NCBI RefSeq assembly: GCF_000835495.1
Contig: NW_015622541.1
Coordinates: 7,192,001-7,256,000, forward strand
Source of the DNA: Cladophialophora immunda
Taxonomy: Eukaryota; Ascomycota; Eurotiomycetes; Chaetothyriales; Herpotrichiellaceae
DNA: 64,000 bases
Direction: 5' to 3'
Shown here piece after piece: positions 58,641 to 63,990 of the stretch (position 1 is the first letter of the stretch; every line of letters begins with the position of its first letter). The notes under the pieces are model-generated. The model did no database searches. It was not told the DNA's origin and saw only the letters and a program-made list of their open reading frames with translations. A program made the position numbers and the translations under genes.

Positions 58641-58706
58641 ATGAAATTCGATGGCAGCACCATGGCATCAGTTGGCTTTGCCTCCTGGTCAAACCACCTC
58701 TGTTGA
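58641..58706 (+). promoter_or_regulatory. Upstream ORF overlapping the helicase start
   Basis: An ATG at 58641 opens a 21-residue frame (MKFDGSTMASVGF...) that overlaps the helicase ATG at 58651 in another frame and ends at 58706. Ribosomes starting here could not simply reinitiate at 58651, so it may dampen expression, unless the transcript starts after 58641. Confidence 0.35.
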
Positions 58707-61464
58707 CCTTGTCCGCAATCAGAGCTACAACACAAAGCCCCTGGCAGGGGTCAAACGTACCATTCAAAAAGTGCATGACGTTCAGCTAGGCCTTCCAATC
58801 CACGGCCAGTCATCAGTCCAGCGGCCACAGACCATCGACACGCCTCTTTACCCGTGCGACTGCCACCCACCTCGCCTTCAAGCCAGTTGTATTATTGAAG
58901 CGGACCGCAGTGATGGCAGCAAAGCAGCCGTGCACACCCCTTCTGCTCATCTGCCTCTAATAAAGTCATCTACCCCAGGCCCTTCGCAAAACCCTCTTCT
59001 CAGCCTTCGACATCCCCGGTATGGTTTACCTTCCCAGTTAGTTGACAATTTCGAATCACTTGGTGTGCGCGCCATATACCCATGGCAGTCGTCGTGCTTA
59101 TTGGGCCCGGGGGTATTGACTGGAGAGCAAAACTTGGTCTATACAGCTCCCACTGGCGGGGGCAAATCGCTGGTGGCTGATGTCCTTCTACTTAAACGAG
59201 TCATCGAAGATCCTACAGCAAAGGGGATCCTCGTCCTCCCCTACGTCGCTCTTGTCCAAGAGAAGTTGAAGTGGCTACGTGCCTTAGCGGATAAAGTATC
59301 CAGAGCGGTTGACGATAGCCCTGACTGCCTGCCAGCACCGACATGGCGCCGGCCAAGCCCACTGGTTCGAGTCAGCGGATTCTTTGGTGGGAGCAGATCG
59401 AATATCAGCTGGTCAGATTGCGACATCGCTGTATGCACCATCGAGAAGGCCAATTCACTGGTGAACGGTGCCATTGAGGAAGGCAAATATGGCGACATCG
59501 GAGTGGTTGTGCTCGATGAACTTCACATGATCAACGACGAACACCGGGGGTATCTTATGGAACTCGTTGCCACGAAGTTAATGTCGCTTGCCTCCGGCGA
59601 GAAGAAAGTTCAGATCGTGGGTATGAGCGGCACCCTGCCCAACCCACAACTCCTAGCACAATGGCTCAACGCGAAATTTTACATCGCAAAATACCGTCCA
59701 ATCCCCATCGAGGAACATCTTGTGTATGAGAATGCTATCTATCCAACAGCAAACGCAAAAGAGTTCTTTCGCACAGCGAGCCAGTTAGCTGCCGGTGATG
59801 CACTCCCGACACAACTACCACAACCACAGCGGACGATTGCCATATCGAATCACCGAGAACTCCAAAGTCCGACGACCAATGCCGTCGTAGCATTGGCTGT
59901 TGAAACTGCCCTCGCCGGTCATGGTGCGCTGACATTCTGTGGCAGTCGAATGGGCGCGGAGAAAACTGCGCTCCTAATCAGCGATGCCTTACCTACTGAT
60001 CATCTTGGCCGAGACGTGTTGGAGAAGCGACAAGATCTCCTGGCATCTCTGTGTGCGCTTCCAGGTGGATTTGAGCCCACATTTTCCAAGGTTATACCTT
60101 GTGGAGTTGGCTTCCACCATGCAGGGTTGACAACTGAAGAGCGAGAGCTCGTTTGCGAAGCATATGACGCAGGGATTCTGCGAGTGATGGTGGCGACGTG
60201 CAGCCTCGCGGCCGGCATCAATCTTCCGGCAAGGAGGGTAATACTAAATGGGGCTCGAATTGGCCGAGAGCTTGTTGGTCCTGCTATGCTTCGACAGATG
60301 CGGGGACGTGCTGGCCGTAAGGGTAAGGACGAAGTCGGTGAGACCTACCTTTGCTGTCAAAAAGTCGACCTTGAGACTGTGGCAGAATTACTCGAGGCGG
60401 AAATGCCTCCGGTCGAAAGCTGCCTGACACCCGAGAAGCGAGGATTCAAGAGAGCTCTTCTAGAGGTCATTGGGACCCGAATGGCGTCCAGCACGTCATT
60501 GTTGATTGAATATGTCCAGTCGTCGCTCCTTTGGCACAGCATTGACCGCTCACAAGTTGCGGAAATGGTCGACGTGGCGAAGAAGGCGTTACTCCAGGAT
60601 GGATTGATCCAAGAAGGGGAATACGACAGTTGCCTCGAACCGACCAGACTGGGAATTGCGGTCGTGGCGGCTGGACTCGGCCCTGAGGATGGAGTTTTTG
60701 TCCACTCGGAACTGCGGCGAGCACTCGAATCGTTCGTCATGGATGGTGAGATGCATATATTTTATCTTTTCACTCCGGTCCAGACCACGGGGTTCGCTGA
60801 AATCTCTTGGTTGACTTTTCGAAACCAATTGGAAGATCTCGACGACAGTGGAATGCGAGCGATCCGACTCATTGGCGTCAATCCAGCTTTCGTCAACAGA
60901 CTCGTCAACAGCGGCGCGCAGCTGAAGGAAAACACGGCGGAGGAGATCCGGATGGCACGCATCTACCGCAGGGCATACTCCGCCTTCCAGCTACGAGACC
61001 TGTGCAATGAAATGCCCATTCACGAAATCAGCTTGAAATACTCTGTTCCACGGGGACAGGTGCAAACGCTGGCTCAAACCTGCCACGGATTTGCAGCAGG
61101 GATGATCAAATTCTGCGAGAGAATGAAATGGGGGATGCTGGCGGCTGTGCTGGCACATATGCTGGACCGCCTTCGTGCCGGCGCTCGGGCCGATCTGCTG
61201 GAAATGGCTCAGATCGCGTTCGTCAAGAGTCGCATGGCCCGGATGCTGTGGGAGAACGGATTCAAGAGTGTTCGAGCTCTGAGTGAGGCCGATCCACAGG
61301 CTCTGGTACCGATCATGATGCAGGCCCAACCACGGAAAACGAAATTGCAGGGTGAAGCGGCCGCCAAATTCCAGGCAAAGTTGTTATCCAAGGCAGAGAT
61401 CATAGTCAGCAGCGCGAACAGACTGTGGGAGAGGCAACAGATGGTGCAGTGGGAGGAGGAATAA
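58651..61464 (+). CDS. HELQ/POLQ-type superfamily 2 DNA helicase
   Basis: One exon, 937 residues. Walker A is APTGGGKS (165-172), the DEAD-type box is DELH (289-292), motif III is MSGTLPN (about 325-331), and motif VI is RQMRGRAGRKG (about 548-558). After the RecA domains come winged-helix, ratchet, and helix-hairpin-helix segments (FKSVRALSEADPQAL near the end). This order matches HELQ (Mus301) and the helicase half of DNA polymerase theta. No polymerase domain follows, so HELQ is the better match. Such helicases act in replication-fork and crosslink repair and meiotic recombination. The first 120 residues are disordered with a Cys-X-Cys-X-Pro-Pro patch (CDCHPP). The absence of introns over 2.8 kb is notable in this window. 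An overlapping upstream ATG sits at 58641. Confidence 0.88.
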   Translation: MAAPWHQLALPPGQTTSVDLVRNQSYNTKPLAGVKRTIQKVHDVQLGLPIHGQSSVQRPQTIDTPLYPCDCHPPRLQASCIIEADRSDGSKAAVHTPSAHLPLIKSSTPGPSQNPLLSLRHPRYGLPSQLVDNFESLGVRAIYPWQSSCLLGPGVLTGEQNLVYTAPTGGGKSLVADVLLLKRVIEDPTAKGILVLPYVALVQEKLKWLRALADKVSRAVDDSPDCLPAPTWRRPSPLVRVSGFFGGSRSNISWSDCDIAVCTIEKANSLVNGAIEEGKYGDIGVVVLDELHMINDEHRGYLMELVATKLMSLASGEKKVQIVGMSGTLPNPQLLAQWLNAKFYIAKYRPIPIEEHLVYENAIYPTANAKEFFRTASQLAAGDALPTQLPQPQRTIAISNHRELQSPTTNAVVALAVETALAGHGALTFCGSRMGAEKTALLISDALPTDHLGRDVLEKRQDLLASLCALPGGFEPTFSKVIPCGVGFHHAGLTTEERELVCEAYDAGILRVMVATCSLAAGINLPARRVILNGARIGRELVGPAMLRQMRGRAGRKGKDEVGETYLCCQKVDLETVAELLEAEMPPVESCLTPEKRGFKRALLEVIGTRMASSTSLLIEYVQSSLLWHSIDRSQVAEMVDVAKKALLQDGLIQEGEYDSCLEPTRLGIAVVAAGLGPEDGVFVHSELRRALESFVMDGEMHIFYLFTPVQTTGFAEISWLTFRNQLEDLDDSGMRAIRLIGVNPAFVNRLVNSGAQLKENTAEEIRMARIYRRAYSAFQLRDLCNEMPIHEISLKYSVPRGQVQTLAQTCHGFAAGMIKFCERMKWGMLAAVLAHMLDRLRAGARADLLEMAQIAFVKSRMARMLWENGFKSVRALSEADPQALVPIMMQAQPRKTKLQGEAAAKFQAKLLSKAEIIVSSANRLWERQQMVQWEEE

Positions 61465-62994
61465 CGACCTGGATATACCGGAGGCCGTGATTCCCTCTCA
61501 AGGAGGTGCAGATGCCCCCGTTCAAGGTTGGGCGATCAACATCCATCCATTGAATACGGAAGGTAGTATGAGGGTCCAAGTATTTCTTGGTGCCTTGCAT
61601 TAGCGGTGCCATTCCTCGCACGGGCGGGCAACACAAGGGGAATAAAGTCCTTGCCGATTTGAGCACTGTCAACACCAGTTAGAGATGCGCTCCAGACGCA
61701 CCAGCAACCGCACGGGCTGTGTGAAGCTAGCAATGCAAGCGAGGGCAGTAGCCGGTGGAGAGGTCTATCTGACGATGGGCTTGATCGGTGTTGTGGTCTT
61801 CGCCGAAGCTGCCGACGATGTGATCGAGCGTGCCGGCGAAAGACGGCTGGACCTGTATGATGCCAGTGCCTGCATATTAATTATTACATCGCAGGTGGGA
61901 GCTGACAAATGACCGACAGCGGTTTCTGGGGGGATGCTTATTCGAGGAATCCCAGCTTGGAGAGAATAGCGCCCAAAGAAGAGCTCCCGAGGGTTGGTTT
62001 GGGTGGTTGGGCTGGGTGGATTACAAAGAAGGCCACTGGGTCGATTCCGCACTGCGACAGCAGCAGGCCTAGGGTGATTGGCTGTGCTTTGACAATCCTC
62101 TGTCAGCTTTTCATAAGCTGGTGTTTTGGTGACATGGGCACCGATGGACCGTGTTTTCCGAGGCTGAAAACTTGGGCCCTCGATAGGCCAGGAAATTTAC
62201 TTGTTAGGAAGAAGACAATGCGGCAATCGACTCGGACCCGGGAGCTAGGGGCAGATGCCTAGTTCGCGTATGAGTTTCGGAGAGGGAGGGAGGCAAGAAG
62301 AGCGGAAGTTGCCATGAGAAATTCGTGCTCAAGTAATGCTGCTGTAATACAAGTACTGTGCAAATGCTGGTGAGTGACGACTGTGCGAGTCATTACAGGT
62401 GTCTGGGCATCTGCCTCCCTACTAAGAGGAGGCAAGCAGGCAAACCTACGACAGGCTGGTGCCAGGTACAGGCCGTATCAGCAGTGCCGCCCACTCCCCC
62501 TGCGGGCGCCAGTTAGTGCTCTGGCGTCATTCTAGGCCCCACAGCTCCCTAGGTAAGCTCGCTGGTGCTGGTGCTGGTGCTGGTGCTGGTGCTGGCGCTC
62601 AATGCTCACTAAACCTGTGCGGGGTTCCCTGCCATGGCCTGCCGTCGCTCTTCGATACCTTCCCAATGCGTCTCGACGAAATGTCAGCGCCCAGCGCGAG
62701 AGTTCCAGGCACACCCGGCACAGCCCCTCGTGTTTTCCGCACCAGGTGGATGAAACCAAAAGGTAAACAAGGTCCGTAGTGGTGAAGCTTCATCGTAAGA
62801 TCCCTCTGCTTCAACTGACCTGCAACGGAGGACGGAGTGCCGTTGCGGATACAAAAACCTCAAGCCCTTCCTCCCTCTCGTGCCAGTTCCGTCCTCTCTT
62901 TCCATCTCACCCAAGCTTCGTCTTCAAGCCCACATACCTCTGTATCTGTCTCTGTCTCTATTTCTCTCTCTATCTCTAACACACCTCCTTCACA
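61465..62994. other. Intergenic upstream of the quinone oxidoreductase
   Basis: About 1.5 kb. A minus-strand frame starting near 61880 (MQALASYRSSRLSPARSITS) has a mitochondrial-presequence look, and a CTAAC...GACAG intron end lies near 61670, but no continuous model could be built. Includes the GCTGGT repeat. From about 62860 the plus strand is C/T-rich, as a leader for the gene at 62995. Confidence 0.4.
62561..62596 (+). repeat. GCTGGT hexanucleotide repeat
   Basis: Five perfect GCTGGT units plus one variant (GCTGGC). Intergenic minisatellite about 400 bp upstream of the gene at 62995. Confidence 0.8.
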
Positions 62995-63801
62995 ATGGCT
63001 CCCAAGATCGCCATCATCTACGTATGTTGCTCTCTCACCCTCCCCTCAACCCTCCCTGCCTACCCCACTGTTCCAGGTTCATCGTCGCACATTTTGGGAC
63101 ATCTGTTGCGGCTGCTAACAGACCATTCCGGACAAACAGTACTCCATGTATGGCCATGTCGCCCAGCTTGCCCAGGCCGAGAAGAAAGGTATTGAAGAGG
63201 CCGGTGGCACTGCCGATATCTACCAGTACGTTGCCTGGACACCACACCATTTTCTCGGAGAGACAGGCCGCCCCCAGAGACTGACTTGGGCCTATGTAGA
63301 ATCGAAGAAACCCTCCCCCAAGAGGTCTTGACCAAAATGCACGCACCGGGCATGAACAAAGACATTCCCGTCGCCACTCCCGAGATCTTGCTCAAGTACG
63401 ACGCTTTCCTCTTCGGCATTGCCACCCGTTACGGCACCTACTCCGCCCAATGGAAGACCTTCATCGATAGACTCGGCGGACACTGGCAGACTGGGGCACT
63501 CTTTGGAAAATACTTTGGCCTGTTCATCAGCACGGCTACTATGGGCGGTGGGCAAGAGACCACGGCCATCACCGCTCTCTCGTCCTGGGTTCACCAGGGC
63601 ATGATCTACGTTCCTCTGGGCTATGCCAAAGCCTTCCCTATCATGGCCGACCTCAGCGCGGCCCGTGGTGGCAGTCCATGGGGCGCAGGTACATTCGCCG
63701 CCGGCGACGGCTCCAGACAGCCTTCCGGTCCCGAACTGGAGCTCGCTACCATCCAGGGCAAGTCGTTCTATGAGCACGTCAGCAAGGTCAGTTTTGCGTG
63801 A
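62995..63801 (+). CDS. Flavodoxin-like NAD(P)H:quinone oxidoreductase (WrbA/Pst2/Alt a 7 family)
   Basis: Three exons (62995-63021, 63140-63225, 63300-63801) encode 204 residues. The enzyme binds FMN and reduces quinones by two electrons, limiting redox cycling. Landmarks are MAPKIAIIYYSMYGHVAQLA (the FMN phosphate loop), FGIATRYGTYSAQWKTFIDR, and STATMGGGQETTA. The end is IQGKSFYEHVSKVSFA, which matches the family's usual C-terminus and length. Exon 1 encodes only nine residues. The stop is UGA followed by CUAG, a known leaky context, and the frame continues 62 codons to a CaaX box (separate entry). Fungal members of this family include minor allergens. In yeast they are linked to oxidative stress. 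Confidence 0.93.
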
Positions 63802-63990
63802 CTAGATGGCAGTACCGAAGAGAAGAAGCCGGCCGAAGGCAACGACGTGAAGCCGGCAGAGCAGCCTGCAAAGACGGAAGGGACAACAGCGGCTGCGGGA
63901 TCCAAGAAACCAACACAACCGATACAGACAGATGACAAGGAAGAGGAGAGCGGGCCCTGTGGATTGCCCAAGAAGTGCGTGATTTTATGA
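63802..63990 (+). other. In-frame C-terminal extension after leaky UGA, ending in CaaX box
   Basis: Directly after UGA the sequence CUAG follows, and the same frame stays open for 62 codons to a second UGA at 63988-63990. The extension is polar and charged, rich in Lys, Glu, Pro, and Thr (start LDGSTEEKKPAEG), and ends GPCGLPKKCVIL. The last four residues fit a CaaX prenylation box. Leu at X favours geranylgeranylation, and the second Cys and nearby lysines would add membrane affinity. Readthrough would give a 267-residue membrane-anchored isoform. A competing way to the same end is a 48-nt GC-AG intron (63758-63805) that would delete the last family helix. Confidence 0.6.

Follow-up and report, generated by a model that had tools for sequence, protein, structure and literature searches.

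In fungi, functional stop-codon readthrough has so far been known mainly for hidden peroxisome signals. In reporters tested in Ustilago maydis, UGA-CU(A) sufficed for readthrough, and readthrough in this context adds a hidden PTS1 to Tpi1, Art1 and Rpe1 of that fungus and to LDHB and MDH1 of mammals (PMC4207609, available part of the text). A preliminary description of the locus treated here names UGA-CUA as an established context for peroxisomal dual targeting in fungi and animals. Prenylation signals have also been considered in connection with readthrough. A list of Drosophila readthrough genes contains Syx17, whose extension carries a predicted farnesylation signal (PMC3840789, from the list entry), and in a study on mammals, sites of prenylation were looked for in such extensions (PMC4359377, relevant excerpt).

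CaaX-ending extensions have been described in the enzyme family in question. Ycp4, a flavodoxin-like protein of Candida albicans, is extended at its C-terminus by about 90 aa that end in a CAAX box, and a Ycp4 GFP fusion was found at the plasma membrane (PMC4556627). Its gene belongs to a set of four, and the tail is treated as part of the protein, no stop being mentioned in the available sections of PMC4556627. The other three members, the Pst proteins of the same yeast, are without the Ycp4 tail; they are at the plasma membrane too and additionally give a cytoplasmic signal, so the tail may be dispensable for membrane association. The quadruple mutant of the family showed lipid peroxidation, and the authors suggested ubiquinone as substrate (same source and sections).

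Readthrough-based dual targeting and the CaaX-bearing Ycp4 are therefore already known to the extent covered by these sources, and what would be new is their combination. In the parts of the open PMC literature that our searches covered, we found no description of readthrough adding a CaaX box to the WrbA family. The preliminary description knew of no readthrough-dependent prenyl anchor in this family; this stands for the combination, while the CaaX extension as such was already known from Ycp4 (PMC4556627, as above).

The gene is located near the end of the window, the 64,000-nucleotide stretch of Cladophialophora immunda DNA that was analysed (contig NW_015622541.1, 7192001-7256000). It is a WrbA-type NAD(P)H:quinone oxidoreductase gene with three exons on the plus strand, and its product of 204 aa has the C-terminus FYEHVSKVSFA. 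The features are as follows.

62995-63021, plus strand: exon 1, with ATG start and MAPKIAIIY; the N-terminus is as in relatives
63022-63139, plus strand: intron 1, 118 bases, GTATGT...CAG; splicing it out restores the family sequence YYSMYGH
63140-63225, plus strand: exon 2, between introns 1 and 2
63226-63299, plus strand: intron 2, 74 bases, GTACGT...TAG; splicing it out restores YQIEETLPQ
63300-63801, plus strand: exon 3 through the first stop (TGA at 63799-63801); the product ends ...SKVSFA
63799-63810, plus strand: putative leaky-stop context TGA CTA GAT GGC, of UGA-CU(A) type
63802-63987, plus strand: putative readthrough extension of 62 codons, a charged Pro/Ala-rich linker plus a conserved C-terminal tail
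63949-63987, plus strand: conserved tail SGPCGLPKKCVIL, the last 13 residues, which match the family tail motif
63958-63960, plus strand: upstream Cys of the tail, a possible S-acylation site; two Lys lie before CVIL
63976-63978, plus strand: Cys codon of the CaaX box CVIL, with C-a-a-X at the very C-terminus, directly before TGA
63988-63990, plus strand: second stop TGA, read as TGA TCG and hence without CU context

The product is well over the NCBIfam cut-offs for NAD(P)H:quinone oxidoreductase type IV (WrbA), with 201.4 bits for TIGR01755 (cut-off 132.5) and 196.9 bits for NF002999 (cut-off 141), and is by this measure a member of that family. Among solved structures, 5mp4 is the nearest in sequence, with E 5.1e-69; it is named 'Protoplast secreted protein 2'. 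Among the best 120 of 7619 protein matches, the top one is from Cladophialophora psammophila, with a core that is 97% identical, and in the tree the window gene adjoins this protein inside a well-supported Chaetothyriales group (100/99). No second WrbA-type gene was found in the same genome (42.2 Mb in 39 contigs), either with the window protein or with TIGR01755; the broader family PF03358 has three other loci there, which neither of these searches reported. An anchored form would thus have to originate at this locus, and what appears to be a single gene would supply both forms in this fungus, compared with four genes in Candida albicans.

The anatomy seen earlier, with a family-typical C-terminus, UGA-CUA-G, 62 open codons and CVIL, was recovered in full, as was the charged, linker-like composition of the extension. 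The stop is directly followed by CU (TGA CTA at 63799-63804), and the last residues of the extension are GPCGLPKKCVIL, after which the second TGA is reached. The CaaX tail does not lie within the main ORF as it does in Ycp4, because a TGA parts the core from the tail. The length of the open run is by itself ordinary. It had been put at a chance of about 5%, a figure that did not hold: at least 62 open codons follow 15.6% of the 1794 plus-strand stops in the window, and composition alone predicts 8-11%. Coding scores of the extension are supportive but modest. When the model was the neighbouring uninterrupted frame of 937 aa (58651-61464, plus strand; by eye a HELQ/POLQ-like DNA repair helicase with DELHMI and QMRGRAGRKG), frame 0 scored highest of the six frames and was equalled by 7 of 2000 base shuffles; when the model was the core of the gene itself, another frame scored higher than frame 0, which was equalled by 56 of 2000 shuffles. 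A stimulatory RNA structure was not detected in the 122 bases downstream of the stop (z -0.33). Two control genes of the same genome, inspected by eye, end in TAG (PGK) and TGA-TGG (RPE), with UGA-CU in neither.

What does go beyond chance, and decisively so, is the homology of the extension to the C-terminal extensions of other fungal WrbA proteins. In a blastp comparison with 218 fetched proteins (low-complexity filter and composition correction both off) it reached 46.2 bits, with P0102 and P0186 as best matches, while 100 shuffled versions did not exceed 30.0 bits. A chance open frame as the sole explanation is ruled out by this tail homology. A region-limited protein search with the extension yielded 27 candidates, none of them at E <= 10. 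The fetched proteins, to which all protein counts given here refer, come from searches that listed the best 120 of 7619 and the best 120 of 589 matches. They include 64 named tail-bearing proteins from other fungi, 62 of which end in C-a-a-X (CVVQ, CVIL, CTIL, CNIL and CDIM among others), and CaaX tails homologous to the extension are present across the Pezizomycotina.

Short forms that end where the core of the window gene ends are common as well. Of the 64 fetched proteins with 200-208 aa, 49 terminate in FA. Named Chaetothyriales account for 19 proteins among the best 120 of the 7619 matches. The tail is found in none of these; 14 stop right at the seam between core and tail with FA as their last residues, four stop at most one residue from it (SF in two cases, each marked partial; GA; FE), and the last is a protein of 197 aa with a different gene model. 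The order was checked with a single species per genus (Cladophialophora, Knufia, Phialophora, Rhinocladiella, Capronia, Exophiala and Fonsecaea), and the remaining two of the 19 proteins bear the source name 'Chaetothyriales sp.'. In the named long forms, the seam sequence varies even between near relatives, and gene models of close relatives disagree at this point (P0137 and P0178 from Alternaria, P0094 and P0121 from Colletotrichum, P0181 and P0140 from Fusarium). Such disagreement is as expected if there is true alternative splicing or if gene finders skirt a stop. Readthrough at the seam, if true, could explain both the different intron placement in these models and the occurrence of short as well as CaaX-ending forms in the databases, including Alt a 7 and Cla h 7.

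Seven tail-bearing proteins of environmental origin were fetched (sources jgi, lgn and ena only), and six of these have a W exactly at the seam, compared with none of the 64 named long forms. The same numbers are obtained by the looser criterion that any W occurs in the seam stretch. In all six cases the W is followed by [LI][DHE]G, a pattern that was composed after the proteins had been viewed. Their seams and their positions in the tree are as follows.

P0080: NFA-W-LDGS, with Leotiomycetes (100/99)
P0098: PKA-W-LHGW, with Tricharina, Pezizomycetes (100/97)
P0102: SFA-W-LDGS, with Chaetothyriales (100/99)
P0122: HGA-W-LDGS, with Alternaria and Pyrenophora, Pleosporales (99/99)
P0126: VNF-W-LEGP, with four Basidiomycota (97/90)
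P0211: NHQ-W-IHGS, with Eurotiales/Onygenales (100/87); nearest is Penicillium, with weak support

The tree has 65 rows and was computed from core sequences; its bootstrap had yet to converge completely, and support for the deep forks is weak. Lineages of the tree groups were looked up for one reference species each. Core identity among the window gene and the six W-bearing relatives is 52-71%. The seventh environmental protein, P0162, is Sordariomycete-like and has the tail without the seam W. In P0080, P0126 and P0211 a second W directly follows the CaaX box and is itself followed by apparently untranslated sequence, so that a terminal TGA has been rendered as W in these entries. The seam W of these three proteins would most simply be a TGA as well. 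In P0098, P0102 and P0122 the seam W likely also represents a TGA, with a sense TGG as the remaining alternative. A fungal copy of the gene was not retrieved from three viral_contigs scans and one genome_contigs scan, and among the 11 loci returned by the tail pattern, tblastn revealed no relative. TGA codons mistranslated as Trp in public environmental sets could act as a detector of readthrough genes even without the DNA.

Conservation was analysed along the extension as the ungapped mean pairwise identity between the window protein and the six W-bearing environmental proteins. It is 63% for the four residues after the stop (+1 to +4) and 51-71% for the last 12 residues, compared with 6-16% in the linker, and in 20000 draws no random set of linker 4-mers reached the 63% of the stop-proximal block. 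At the protein level there are thus two conserved islands, which would be the places where the ribosome decides and where the lipid attaches. The residue after the seam W is Leu in five of the six relatives and Ile in P0211, so CUA is not universal after the stop, and conservation of the protein does not prove CUA in the relatives. Both the extension and the position of the stop are conserved at this level, the stop codon of the relatives being deduced from the W. An alignment of orthologues had been proposed as a check of the preliminary interpretation, with random sequence after their stops as a result that would speak against it. What was found instead are CaaX-ending tails and a conserved +1 to +4 block with W-[LI][DHE]G in six lineages; the check is thus positive for the protein, with UGA itself deduced from the W, and the interpretation as readthrough gains support from it.

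From the observed anatomy, tail homology, stop-proximal block and CaaX tail we infer readthrough itself, prenylation, location and benefit. We put the probability at about 0.77 that one mRNA gives two proteins here, with UGA readthrough supplying, beside the soluble enzyme, a small amount of a prenylated form at a membrane. The main rival is alternative splicing, which we regard as unlikely yet as the one to be taken most seriously. A minor in-frame intron would remove the TGA and join the core to the tail, and the annotated long forms of Sordariomycetes, Eurotiales and Pleosporales may be produced in this way. There is a plausible donor just before the stop (AAG|GTCAGT at 63787), and in-frame CAG acceptors occur at 63864 and 63927, 78 and 141 bases from it. 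On the other hand, when donors from 63650 on were combined with CAG or TAG acceptors at a minimum of 35 bases, none of the 29 in-frame candidates had a CTNAY branch site in range. The variable seams of the named long forms and the different models of close relatives (P0137/P0178 and P0094/P0121) suggest introns there, while the W at the seam of six of the seven environmental long forms corresponds to reading straight across it. Moreover, within the linker only residues +1 to +4 are conserved, and their conservation would be purposeless were they intronic. In fungi, the same hidden peroxisome signal is added by splicing in one species and by readthrough in another (PMC4973966, available part), and a mosaic of this kind is likely for the WrbA tail, too.

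The other alternatives are far less probable. An ancestral main-frame tail may have been cut off by a stop gained in the Chaetothyriales lineage and now be decaying as untranslated sequence; annotated models outside the order do carry the tail, but its motif is intact both in the window and in P0102 (same order according to the tree, 69% core identity), W-[LI][DHE]G is also found in five other lineages, and the 62 codons contain no stop, so that we consider a relic very unlikely. No more credible is A-to-I editing of the mRNA from UGA to UGG (Trp), by which the long form would arise without leaky termination. Editing of this type with loss of stop codons is known in some Pezizomycotina during sexual development, and the relatives have a W at the seam. 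Fungal A-to-I editing favours an A after U, to which UGA does not conform, and neither the W that P0080, P0126 and P0211 have past their CaaX box nor the conserved codons after the stop would be explained. The same seam W could be taken to indicate a sequencing or assembly error, with TGG as the true codon and a protein of 267 aa. This is the least probable alternative, since 18 of the 19 named Chaetothyriales, including the 97% identical C. psammophila protein, stop at the same place or at most one residue from it.

According to the readthrough interpretation, the majority of ribosomes would terminate at UGA and release the soluble enzyme of 204 aa, while a minority would decode the UGA in UGA-CUA-GAU-GG and produce a form of 267 aa with a flexible linker extension of 62 residues. 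This form would end PCGLPKK-CVIL, and its CaaX box would be prenylated. CaaX boxes with X = Leu are as a rule substrates of geranylgeranyltransferase I, and the final Leu of CVIL accordingly suggests geranylgeranylation, probably by this enzyme; three loci of the same genome score over the cut-off of the prenyltransferase family PF00432. The conserved upstream Cys is possibly palmitoylated, by which a minor fraction of the enzyme would be tethered, perhaps at the plasma membrane. N-Ras and H-Ras have dually lipidated C-termini with a second Cys shortly upstream of the CaaX box; the anchor motif is alike while the proteins are unrelated. A tethered enzyme could keep membrane quinones reduced, a role proposed on the basis of the Candida albicans family members (PMC4556627, sections as above).

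The proposed system resembles the PTS1 cases (PMC4207609, same part) in the UGA followed by CUA, the low-level C-terminal extension and the second site for a cytosolic enzyme, and it differs from them in that the signal is a CaaX lipid anchor. With Ycp4 it shares the enzyme family and the CaaX-ending extension (PMC4556627, same sections), and with Syx17 a prenylation signal predicted to be added by readthrough, although Syx17 is an unrelated protein and a single listed prediction (PMC3840789, same entry). Traces of the arrangement occur in Ascomycota as well as in Basidiomycota, in contrast to the patchy occurrence described for readthrough-coupled PTS1 (PMC9549241, available part). If true, the addition of a lipid anchor to an enzyme so widely marked by these traces, and with no second gene found in its genome, would widen the known uses of readthrough. 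It is conceivable, at somewhat less than even odds, that the leaky UGA of the fungal WrbA-type gene is an ancient switch which dates back to the common ancestor of Ascomycota and Basidiomycota, whether by inheritance or by repeated retention, and which divides the enzyme between a soluble pool and a small, lipidated one that protects the quinones of the membrane. This switch may have been replaced by splicing in Sordariomycetes and by gene duplication in yeasts (Ycp4 beside Pst). Oxidation of ribosomal proteins reportedly modulates termination fidelity, and one may speculate that oxidative stress could raise the anchored pool.

Two further observations concern the surroundings of the gene. Upstream, past a CT-rich leader (about 62930-62990), the hexamer CTGGTG occurs five times in tandem (62562-62591). 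The next gene downstream lies about 660 bases 3' of the second stop, past the end of the window (L002, near 7654), and by eye resembles a Zn2Cys6 transcription factor, with the Cys-rich reading CDECS...GCERCVKQNLTCHYS.
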